Shown one piece after another: positions 27,776-31,420 of a DNA stretch of 64,000 nt. Position 1 is the first letter of the stretch. Each line of letters opens with the position of its first letter. The notes beneath the pieces were generated by a model. It made no database searches. It was given only the letters and a program-made list of their open reading frames with translations, and was not told the origin of the DNA. Made by a program: the position numbers and the translations under genes. The stretch is from Thiotrichaceae bacterium (GTDB lineage: Bacteria > Pseudomonadota > Gammaproteobacteria > Beggiatoales > Beggiatoaceae), in NCBI GenBank assembly GCA_011391085.1, contig JAABRD010000030.1:1-64000 (forward strand), read 5' to 3'.

Positions 27776-28141
27776 TTACTTAACCGCAATCGCAGCCTTT
27801 AACGGACTCACCGCCGCGGCCTGCTTGAGACCGTCTTGGAACCACTCCGTCAGTTGCTTTTTGGTATCCATCACCATCTCCACGGACACCCGCACGTTGT
27901 TGAAGAATTTTTTGTTAAATTCTTCTGTCAGTTGAGACTGGGTGGTATACACATCCGACAACCGCTTGGCTTGGCTAAGGCCATGCACCTGCTTGCTACC
28001 GCTATCCACATAAATCCCCACCATATCCATTTGCTGTTGCGCCAAATTCATCATCAAATCACTGTTGATGCTGGCAAATTTCTGGGCGGAGGCGAAAGTC
28101 TGTTGGTTCAAATCAAACCATTGTTTCATAAAGTTTTGCAT
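27776..28141 (-). CDS. Phasin family protein (PHB granule)
   Basis: A 121-residue helical protein of the PhaP phasin family, which coats polyhydroxybutyrate granules. Marks: MKQWFDLNQQTFASAQKFASINSDLMMNLAQQQMD, then amphipathic helices, and the Ala-rich end (AAAVSPLKAAIAV). I start at the ATG at 28141, which follows GAGGATT. The longer frame to 28195 adds 18 codons that read through a possible PhaR operator. It implies that the organism stores PHB. No phaC/phaB genes are adjacent. Confidence 0.85.
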   Translation of the reverse strand: MQNFMKQWFDLNQQTFASAQKFASINSDLMMNLAQQQMDMVGIYVDSGSKQVHGLSQAKRLSDVYTTQSQLTEEFNKKFFNNVRVSVEMVMDTKKQLTEWFQDGLKQAAAVSPLKAAIAVK

Positions 28142-28187
28142 ATAGAATCCTCGAATTGAAGTCCAAATCTGCCGACCTGGACATTTA

Positions 28188-28202
28188 TGTTGCACCGCAC
28201 AA
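28188..28202. promoter_or_regulatory. Imperfect PhaR-like palindrome upstream of phasin
   Basis: TGTTGCACCGCACAA, an imperfect version of the palindrome at 28321-28335, centred about 54 bp upstream of the phasin start. PhaR repressors of PHB genes bind TGC-rich palindromes. The link is by analogy. Confidence 0.4.
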
Positions 28203-28335: not shown

Positions 28336-28458
28336 ATAATAACACGAAAAAAGGCGTTTCAATGACACCTCTTGCCTGATTCTATATATAAGGGTGACAT
28401 TAAACAAACTCAAGTCCACCTGATTTAAAAAAATAAAATACATTTTATTTATGGATTC

Positions 28459-28684
28459 AGGAGTCCAAAGCGCAGCTTTATAGTAATATTCCTCATTTGT
28501 ACCATACCTCCCCCAGATTGCCGTGACTGTAGTGACTGTAGGGTGGATTAAGCGAAGCGTATCCACCACTTTTTATAGATTTTGGTGGATACGCTTCGCT
28601 TAATCCACCCTACGAGAGAGAGGGACATAGGAGTGAGAATATCACTATACCAGGCCATGGACAAAGCGTCGTTTTGGACTCCTG
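28459..28684. repeat. Three palindromic repeat families nested in one another
   Basis: The outer element has arms CAGGAGTCCAAAGCG (28459) and its complement (ending 28684). Inside lies the TATAGTAATATTCCTC element (28479-28494 and 28631-28649). Inside that lies a complete GTAGGGTGGATTAAGCG element (28538-28613). Each inner element interrupts the outer one, giving a relative order of insertion. It occupies much of the 690-bp gap between phasin and clpB. Confidence 0.88.
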
Positions 28685-28716
28685 AAATTGACCTGGTCTT
28701 TTTTGCCATTCTATGA

Positions 28717-28826
28717 CGGATAATGGATAATAAACAATAAATAATGAGTGCCACAAATCAGGTCATATCACCCTGTCAATAGCACCCCCCATTATTCATT
28801 ATTTATTATCCATTCTTCATTAAACA
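28717..28826. repeat. GGATAATGGATAATAA simple repeat and its inverted partner
   Basis: GGATAATGGATAATAAACAA (28720 on) faces CATTATTCATTATTTATTAT (28790 on), forming an AT-rich inverted pair just upstream of clpB. The longer clpB frame begins inside it, which is why the internal ATG is preferred. Confidence 0.7.
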
Positions 28827-28828
28827 TT

Positions 28829-31420
28829 ATGAACCTAGACAAACTGACCACCAAATTTCAACAAGCCCTCTCCAACGCCCAAAGTCTCGCTGCCAGACGT
28901 GACCACCGTTTTATCGAACCCGCCCATCTCCTGTTGGCCATGTTAGACCAAGCCGATACCGGGATTCCGCAACTCCTCGCCCGCGTCGGGGCCAATACTC
29001 ACCAAATTCGTACCGGCCTCCTTGACATTCTCGATAGAATCGACAAAGTCAAATCTAACCAAGGAGAAATTTACCCCTCCAATGACCTCACGCGCATTTT
29101 AAATGTCACCGACAAACTTGCCCAACAACACAAAGATACTTATATCTCCAGCGAGTTGTTTTTACTGGCAGCGGCACAAGATAAAGGTAACGTCGGGGAA
29201 TTGTTGCGCAAATCCGGTGCCGACAAATCTCTTCTTGACCAAGCCATTCAACAAACTCGTGGCGGTACCCAAGTCCATGACCCCAATGCTGAAGAACAAC
29301 GGCAAGTTCTGGAAAAATACACCATTGACCTCACCGCCCGCGCCGCCCACGGCAAACTGGATCCCGTCATTGGCCGCGATGACGAAATCCGGCGCGTCAT
29401 TCAAGTTTTACAACGGCGCACCAAAAACAACCCCGTCCTCATTGGTGAAGCCGGCGTCGGCAAAAGTGCCATTGTGGAAGGACTTGCCCAACGCATTCTC
29501 AACAGCGAAGTCCCCGAAGGTCTCAAAAACAAACGCCTCCTCTCCCTAGACATGGGGTCCCTCATTGCCGGGGCCAAATATCGTGGTGACTTTGAAGAAC
29601 GCTTAAAAGCCGTTATCAACGAACTGTCTAAACAAGAAGGCCAAATTATCCTCTTCATTGACGAACTACACACCATGGTCGGCGCTGGCAAAGCCGAAGG
29701 CGCCATGGATGCTGGCAACATGTTGAAACCCGCCCTCGCCCGTGGCGAACTGCACTGCATTGGTGCCACCACGTTAGACGAATATCGTAAATACATGGAA
29801 AAAGATGCGGCCCTTGAACGACGTTTCCAAAAAGTGCTGGTCAATGAACCCAATGTGGAAGACACGATTGCCATTTTGCGTGGCCTGAAAGAACGTTATG
29901 AAGTGCATCACGGCGTGGACATCACCGACCCCGCCATTGTGGCCGCCGCCACCCTTTCCCAACGCTATATCACCGACCGGCAATTGCCAGACAAAGCCAT
30001 TGACCTCATTGATGAAGCCGCTAGTCGTATTCGCATGGAAATCGATTCGAAACCGGAACCGATAGACCGTCTGGACCGCCGCCTCATCCAACTGAAAATT
30101 GAACAAGCCGCCGTCAAAAAGGAAAAAGACGAGGCATCCAAAAAACGTCTGGACAAACTCAATGAAGAAATCCGCAGTATCGAAAAAGAACTAGCCGACC
30201 TCAATGAACTCTGGCGTGTTGAGAAAACCAGTGTTCAAGGCACTCATCATATCAAGGAGGAACTGGAAAAAACCCGCCTCGAAATGGAAGCTGCCCAACG
30301 CAAGGGCGACTGGGATAGTGTCGCTAAACTACAATATGAACGGATTCCCAGTTTAGAAAAACAATTGACCGCCGCCGGTCAAGCCGAAAAGACCTCCTTT
30401 AAACTCCTCCGCAATTCCGTCACCGATGAAGAAATTGCCGTTGTTGTCTCCAAATGGACCGGCATCCCGGTCAGCAAAATGTTAGAAGGCGAACGCGACA
30501 AATTATTGCGCATGGAAGAAGCCCTACATCAACGGGTCATTGGCCAAGAAGAGGCTGTACAATCAGTAGCCAATGCCATTCGCCGTGCCCGTGCCGGACT
30601 TGCCGACCCCCATCGTCCCAACGGTTCCTTCCTCTTCTTAGGACCCACCGGCGTTGGCAAAACCGAACTCTGCAAAGCCCTCGCCGGTTTTCTCTTTGAC
30701 ACCGACGAAGCGATGGTACGCATCGACATGTCCGAATTTATGGAAAAACATTCCGTCGCCCGTCTCATTGGCGCCCCACCCGGTTACGTGGGCTATGACG
30801 AAGGCGGTTATCTGACCGAAGCCATCCGCCGTCGTCCCTATTCTGTCATTCTCTTAGACGAAGTCGAAAAAGCCCACCCCGACGTCTTCGGCGTCCTCCT
30901 CCAAGTGCTAGACGATGGCCGTCTTACCGACGGCCAAGGACGCACGGTGGACTTTCGCAACTGCGTCATTGTGATGACTTCCAATTTAGGTTCACAACTG
31001 ATTCAAGAAATGGCTGGCGAAGAAAACTATGAAACCATGAAAATGTCCGTCATGGAAATCGTGGGACAGCACTTCCGCCCTGAATTTGTCAACCGCATTG
31101 ATGAAATCGTCGTCTTCCATCCCCTGGGTAAAGACCAAATTCACGCCATTGCCAACCTCCAAATCGAGTATTTACGCAAACGGTTACAATCCCAAAATAT
31201 TGGCTTACATGTCACCCCAGAAGCCATCCAACACTTGGGTAACGCTGGTTTTGACCCTGTATACGGTGCCCGTCCATTGAAACGGGCGATTCAACAGTTG
31301 TTAGAAAATCCCTTAGCCCAAGAAATTCTCGCTGGCAAATTTATCCCCGGCGACACCATTGAAGCCGAGTGGCGCAATGGCAAGATGCAATTTGGCAAGA
31401 CGTTGGCAGTAAAACGGTAA
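28829..31420 (+). CDS. clpB: Disaggregase ClpB
   Basis: An 863-residue AAA+ chaperone that, with DnaK, extracts proteins from aggregates. Order: Clp N-domain (1-145, [19 protein letters not shown]), AAA1 with Walker [11 protein letters not shown] and Walker [11 protein letters not shown], the coiled-coil M domain (~405-525) that separates ClpB from ClpA/ClpC, AAA2 with Walker [11 protein letters not shown] and Walker [12 protein letters not shown], and sensor 2 [10 protein letters not shown]. Pore loops KYRG and GYVG are present. Length is normal. I use the ATG at 28829. The 27 extra codons upstream are repeat-encoded. A sigma-32 promoter is expected, but I see only a weak -10-like CCCCAT at 28787. 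Confidence 0.97.

Follow-up and report, generated by a model that had tools for sequence, protein, structure and literature searches.

Three families of palindromic repeats lie inside one another between two genes of the DNA analyzed here, which raises the question of whether the order in which they are nested is also the order in which they arrived. The window, that is, the whole 64,000-nt stretch analyzed (contig C65:1–64000), belongs to a 5.77-Mb draft genome in 140 contigs with a GC content of approximately 46% (864-kb sample), and the nest sits between an unassigned ORF on the minus strand (27776–28195) and a ClpB ORF on the plus strand (Table 1). We designated the outer palindrome F1, the middle MITE F2, and the inner REP pair F3; C and L numbers denote contigs and loci. 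An earlier note had described three families, each intact around the next and with no transposase gene among them, and both observations were confirmed, with F1 one base wider than had been stated. F1 reads CAGGAGTCCAAA...TTTGGACTCCTG and F2 reads TATAGTAATATTCC...GAATATCACTATA, the right end of F2 differing from its left end by two mismatches, and F3 consists of GTAGGGTGGATTAAGCG in both orientations. The inverted repeats found in the window include outer arms at 28456–28479 and 28663–28686 (88% complementary over 24 nt) and inner arms at 28538–28568 and 28583–28613 (100% complementary over 31 nt). A further AT-rich inverted repeat with 25-nt arms (28722–28814) lies between the nest and clpB.

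Table 1. Features of the nested repeats and the adjoining gene, in window coordinates.
Feature	Position	Strand	Basis or remark
F1 palindromic repeat, CAGGAGTCCAAAGCG...TTTGGACTCCTG	28458..28684		227 nt with F2 in place; 58 nt once F2 is excised down to one TA
F2 IS630-type MITE, ends TATAGTAATATTC / GAATATCACTATA, subterminal TTTGTACC at left	28479..28649		No gene inside
TA target duplication of F2, left copy	28479..28480		Junction and empty sites
TA target duplication of F2, right copy	28648..28649		Junction and empty sites
Tandem duplication TGACTGTAG TGACTGTAG into GTAG head of left REP	28524..28541	+	Similar one at the same junction of the C51 copy
F3 head-to-head GTAG-REP pair (REPIN/BIME-like), 31-nt perfect arms	28538..28613		Inverted repeats, fold, copy number
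F3 left REP, GTAG head and hairpin GGTGGATTAAGCGAAGCGTATCCACC	28538..28567	+	Inverted repeat, fold
F3 right REP, inverted copy	28584..28613	-	Inverted repeat
Downstream ORF with ClpB, family match from residue 28	28748..31420	+	Adjoins the nest, outside it

A chance origin of the matches to the three families was rejected, as shuffle and whole-genome controls lay far below the observed numbers. The window contained 15 matches to F1 (≤1 mismatch), 7 to F2 (≤2 mismatches), and 7 to F3 (≤3 mismatches); after shuffling, the means were 1.60, 0.23, and 0.12, respectively. In the whole genome, the F1 12-mer occurred 416 times (control, 1), the F2 end with ≤1 mismatch 549 times (control, 32), and the F3 17-mer with ≤1 mismatch 434 times (control, 0). 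A first genome search scored 40 of 820 candidates, and copies and empty sites were studied in a sample of 1,773,952 of the 5,771,164 bases (1.77 Mb), in which the densities of F1, F2, and F3 are not unbiased because the contigs were picked for their length and their many listed matches. This sample contained 73 paired copies of F1, 82 paired copies of F2 (those of 40–330 nt, longer copies being excluded), and 67 inverted pairs of F3; the filter for overlapping loci may have retained a few duplicates and, having used short probes that partly lay within repeats, lost some separate loci, for example a composite at C84:24129.

Single-TA empty sites are the mark left by IS630/Tc1-type transposition. 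When F2 was excised with one TA kept, a paralogous uninterrupted match was obtained for 12 of the 82 copies in the 1.77 Mb, the test being applied to copies with flanks of at least 40 nt. Retaining one TA gave a better match than retaining none or two in all 119 element–site pairs, 102 of which stem from three elements within high-copy repeats, and each of the 12 elements agrees; control joins placed 200 or 400 nt off F2 gave a spanning match in 0 of 157 cases. F2 is thus an IS630-type MITE, with terminal inverted repeats, no transposase gene, a TA duplication, and ends shared with IS630 elements. MITEs of the Correia and RUP type are short and gene-free, with terminal inverted repeats, a TA duplication, and ends in common with IS630 elements, and F2 is like these IS630-derived MITEs in all of these features; it differs from them in that several unrelated palindromic cargos occupy one frame and that an IS630 element with F2 ends was not found in its own genome. 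A GGCTAAAGCCTCTAGTCC repeat family supplies the commonest 8-mers of the 864-kb sample and is also a target of F2 (for example, in the flanks at C11:68640).

At the focal locus, excision of F2 with one TA retained gave a gapless fit to intact F1 copies at C47:70581, C96:6777, C11:76501, and C50:32343, with 85–89% identity over 58–61 nt, and weaker fits to the copies at C33:97206 (with a 2-nt gap) and on C53 (over 43 nt). Because the removal of F2 restores a gapless 58-nt F1, F2 entered an F1 that was already present, and the comparison with intact F1 copies shows that it did so at a TA in the upper F1 stem. Among the 73 paired F1 copies, 31 were 30–31 nt long and another 31 were 51–59 nt long. 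Their flanks are biased, with T or C just before the element and G or A just after it, and two folded copies pair to their outermost bases, so that F1 has no unpaired head of the GTAG type. No empty site was found for F1 among the 73 paired copies of the sample (4 self matches; flanks of at least 50 nt), and in each of the other 41 family genomes its 14-mer was present at 0–5 places. F1, a hairpin palindrome of high copy number, may be old or may have spread in a different way. At C47:74951–75264 (L129), F1 halves enclose a GGGTAGTGATGCAATGTGGG element, and this in turn encloses an F2 whose cargo is C-rich, which makes a three-layered arrangement with another middle family.

A single REP of F3, when folded as DNA, leaves its GTAG unpaired. 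REPINs were reportedly described by Bertels and Rainey in 2011. The search for RAYT-like transposases that the earlier note had proposed yielded two genes in this genome, each with its own REP. The RAYT on C75 (L091, NF047646), the only one that the family search with PF01797 had picked up, has the focal REP on both sides (REPs at 806–1280 and 1882–1972) and reads as frameshifted near its start, the start codon and the body being out of frame with each other. Seven relatives served as the standard for this judgment: M is followed by YRR in four and by YKR in one, and the remaining two gave no usable reading. Because the C75 RAYT is frameshifted, the focal REP may no longer have an engine of its own in this genome, unless the frameshift is an assembly error. 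Downstream of this gene, at L091:806–1193, eight REP units are arranged in tandem with a spacing of 49 nt. The second RAYT (G000:C99:1255–1737, L312) has an open frame of 205 amino acids, with a different REP, GTAGGGTGCGTTAGCG, at its flanks and, outside these on either side, one more repeat that reads GTCTGAATCAGAATTCCCAGAAT or nearly so. A RAYT is likely to be the helper of F3. No empty site was found for the 67 F3 pairs of the sample (flanks of at least 50 nt), the only match being a self match in a tandem array. Exact tandem duplications of 7–11 nt that end in GTAG immediately before a REP head, such as that in the focal nest, were present in 12 of 146 distinct flanks in the 1.77 Mb; among shifted positions the figure was 2 of 292, and among GTAG sites elsewhere it was 21 of 4030. 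The 12 are not all independent, the focal one and that on C51 being of one origin. They are possibly footprints of REP insertion or of slippage at the insertion.

The order of the two inner elements can be read from a second copy, at C51:68785, in which F3 is flanked by the F2 interior of the focal copy (29 of 30 positions identical in the left arm and 30 of 32 in the right arm), with a tandem GTAG duplication at the left F2/F3 junction as at the focal copy, and in which the outer flanks are not F1. Because both F2/F3 junctions are the same there, F3 lay inside F2 before F2 entered F1; since no left F2 end is recognizable in the C51 copy, the evidence for the junctions shared by the focal element comes from two copies, one of them truncated. 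Composites of F2 and F3 spread as units. Among the 15 F2 copies that contain F3, 5 have both F2/F3 junctions in common at different places (4 identical and 1 with a single change), the composite at C84:24129 is a sixth of that kind, and a 153-nt composite on C84 (L003) has an empty site at C48:74933–75033 that matches with 99% identity over 101 nt. If F1, F2, and F3 had instead been inserted independently and successively at this locus, as the earlier note had proposed, every element would be intact around the next, as it is. F3 also exists apart from F2, since for 46 of the 67 pairs the nearest 120 nt contain no F2 end, and most F2 copies hold other cargo, 67 of the 82 lacking F3. Nevertheless, the F2 interior, both junctions, and the GTAG duplication are common to the C51 copy, and F3 is unlikely to have been inserted twice, independently, at one and the same base, so that we regard three successive insertions as improbable. 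The proposed order therefore stands for F1 before F2 but not for F3 as the youngest element.

Two further explanations dispense with a mobile nest. Slippage, recombination between repeats, and gene conversion might have built the nest without transposition, the F3 copies acting as recombination points at which half-elements are joined. Some chimeras do exist: at C50:29885, F3 lies between the right arm of the focal F2 and a different palindrome, and at C11:101753, an F2 left arm is combined with an F1 half at the end. The single-TA empty sites of 12 different F2 copies, against none among the control joins, and the retention of both ends by the focal F2 make such an origin of the nest very unlikely, and F1 may nonetheless have spread in this manner. 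Alternatively, the whole block might be one selected cis-element of clpB, that is, a terminator, an RNA hairpin, or a regulatory site. Its location upstream of the ClpB ORF and the strong folds, namely the 31-bp hairpin formed by the F3 pair (z = −16.5) and an uninterrupted F1 copy from another place (z = −13.5), would fit this explanation. In opposition to it, each of the three families occurs at hundreds of places, and the exact F2 end pattern, present 255 times in its own genome, was absent from all 41 of the family's other genomes. Among the matches listed from 57 related genomes, none of them of the same genus, none outside its own genome covered the whole nest; those listed in other genomes fell in the coding part of ClpB, in REPs, in the AT-rich stretch that precedes clpB, and, for one genome, in the left arm of F1. 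The nine Rfam matches, all on hairpins, scored below their respective gathering scores. A single cis-element is therefore extremely unlikely.

The earlier note had held that the palindromes move as units with a helper in trans, for example a REP-type TnpA or another transposase. The first part is supported for F2, for which a TA target duplication, clean TA junctions, and empty sites were found in the 1.77 Mb; for F1 it is not supported, the same sample having given no empty site, and F3 alone likewise gave none. For the helper, one REP-type enzyme is insufficient: besides the RAYT that is likely for F3, F2 points to an IS630-type DDE transposase as its putative helper, judging from ends that are known from other genomes. 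An IS630 element of 1071 nt in Thiomargarita sp. SulCav (L180:3284–4354) has F2-type ends on both sides, each within 1 mismatch of TATAGTAATATTC, and its 298-amino-acid ORF matched NF033545 at 179 bits (cutoff, 100). This element is a candidate parent of the F2 MITEs of SulCav, many of which have the same two unlike ends; the F2 end pattern occurred in at least 49 stretches of the named collection, including at least 35 from SulCav, so that the focal genome is likely to be that of a gammaproteobacterium resembling the giant sulfur bacteria. Among 16 further IS630 loci, both ends were within 1 mismatch of TATAGTAATATTC in 6 (L253, L254, L256, L259, L270, and L271), and 10 had no F2-like end pair, one of which (L255) has a single end at a contig start. 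The IS630 spans of L253, L254, L256, and L259 are 946–1071 nt long, and stops interrupt the protein match in each of them. In the focal genome, a whole-genome protein search of the 140-contig draft gave five IS630 homologues and no element with F2 ends; the best homologue shared 43% identity over 83 amino acids at a contig start, and its end reads TATAGCAATTCTC. An IS630 element of the same genome as the source of F2 was rejected, the ends being different where visible. Four pairs of F2 ends 700–1800 nt apart lie on contigs that had no match in that search. L158 was rejected as a gene-bearing F2, since its distant ends belong to two separate elements and no transposase-sized ORF is listed between them.

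Taken together, we consider it highly probable that F1 was in place, that F3 entered F2 elsewhere and earlier, and that the composite then entered F1. The F1 palindrome would already have been located between the two genes when a GTAG-REP pair, probably through single-strand DNA chemistry of the RAYT type, entered an F2 elsewhere, at a time before the last step. An IS630 (DDE) transposase, presumably acting in trans, would then have copied the resulting composite as one piece. That a copy inserted at a TA in the upper stem of F1 and duplicated this TA is shown by the intact F1 copies.

F3 is one of several cargos of F2. The 82 F2 copies contained C-rich palindromes (40), GCAATAATT palindromes (21), F3 alone (14), GGGATAACA (1), mixed cargo (3, one of them with F3), or other sequences (3). 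In SulCav, a GGGATAACACCCC palindrome was present in 25 of 33 F2 copies (35 loci), and in the focal genome it lies mostly outside F2 (10 outside and 1 inside in the 1.77 Mb). F3 units were found within F2 in 30 of 171 cases against 1.14 expected from length, a figure that is inflated by composite copying. Inverted flanks (score ≥10) surrounded 22 of 61 F3 pairs with distinct flanks, the corresponding share being 14% for swapped pairs and 2.3% for random places; AATGCCATTAAGTTAAG, the other common frame of F3, also looks composite because ten listed pairs have the same 15-nt/0-nt geometry. Nests of four layers were observed at L033:1265–1514, where F2 encloses a C-rich palindrome, a CATTAAGTTAA palindrome, and F3, and at L054:1636–1904, where F2 encloses a C-rich palindrome, a CATTAAGTTAA palindrome, and an innermost element; the innermost element of nests of this type is F3 or a GGCTAAAGCC-type repeat. 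As a tentative generalization, which we hold to be possible rather than probable, F2 might be a general chassis that repeatedly takes up unrelated palindromes (REP pairs and C-rich, GCAATAATT, and GGGATAACACCCC hairpins) at its center and spreads them, such that RAYT/HUH repeats would gain a second engine (IS630, DDE), the cargo would be swapped between species while the chassis stays, and the AATGCCATTAAGTTAAG palindrome would be a second chassis for REP pairs.

Nesting of small repeats is reportedly not confined to this genome: Elhai et al. are said to have described in 2008 very small, mobile dispersed repeats of Nostoc, some of them nested in others, and one study reportedly found a minisatellite within a MITE. 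The closest likeness is to Anabaena variabilis, for which the available part of Di Nocera et al. 2013 (PMC3733652) reports GTAG-15 dimers inside TATAGGA...TCCTATA palindromes. There, as here, GTAG-REP dimers are enclosed in a longer palindrome with TATAG at its start and CTATA at its end, so that the present nest is a variant of a known arrangement. According to the same part of that paper, no palindromes of this type without linked REPs were found in A. variabilis, and the palindrome is viewed as a target, whereas F2 here mostly holds other cargo, has TA empty sites and ends tied to IS630, and spreads as a composite with F3. As far as the available text of Nunvar et al. 2010 (PMC2817692) describes the REP/RAYT system, F3 is like it in its GTAG head, imperfect palindrome, and head-to-head pairs, and in the REPs that flank a RAYT, each of the two RAYTs here having its own REP; it differs in that part of the REP pairs lie inside other palindromic elements and are copied along with them. 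Correia and RUP elements are named as IS630-derived MITEs in the same text (PMC2817692). In Candidatus Thiomargarita nelsonii, which possibly belongs to a related host group, the available portion of PMC4853749 describes many palindromic repeats and a family of MITEs that end in TATAG and lie within a group I intron. Its authors did not find a parental IS in ISfinder, and that portion describes neither REP cargo nor TA empty sites. The literature searches returned no description of an IS630 MITE with a REP pair as its cargo. What is new relative to the known arrangement is the TA empty sites, the link to IS630, the composite copying, and the exchangeable cargo, none of which was found in the literature searched.

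These results mean that the elements at this locus are nested in one order and arrived in another, and that ages read from nesting alone mislead when composites move. Furthermore, the presence of several cargo types in one F2 frame makes the capture of hairpins by MITEs testable. The findings also suggest a second route by which REP pairs spread, namely by riding an unrelated transposon, which bears on how REPs persist in a genome with a broken RAYT.
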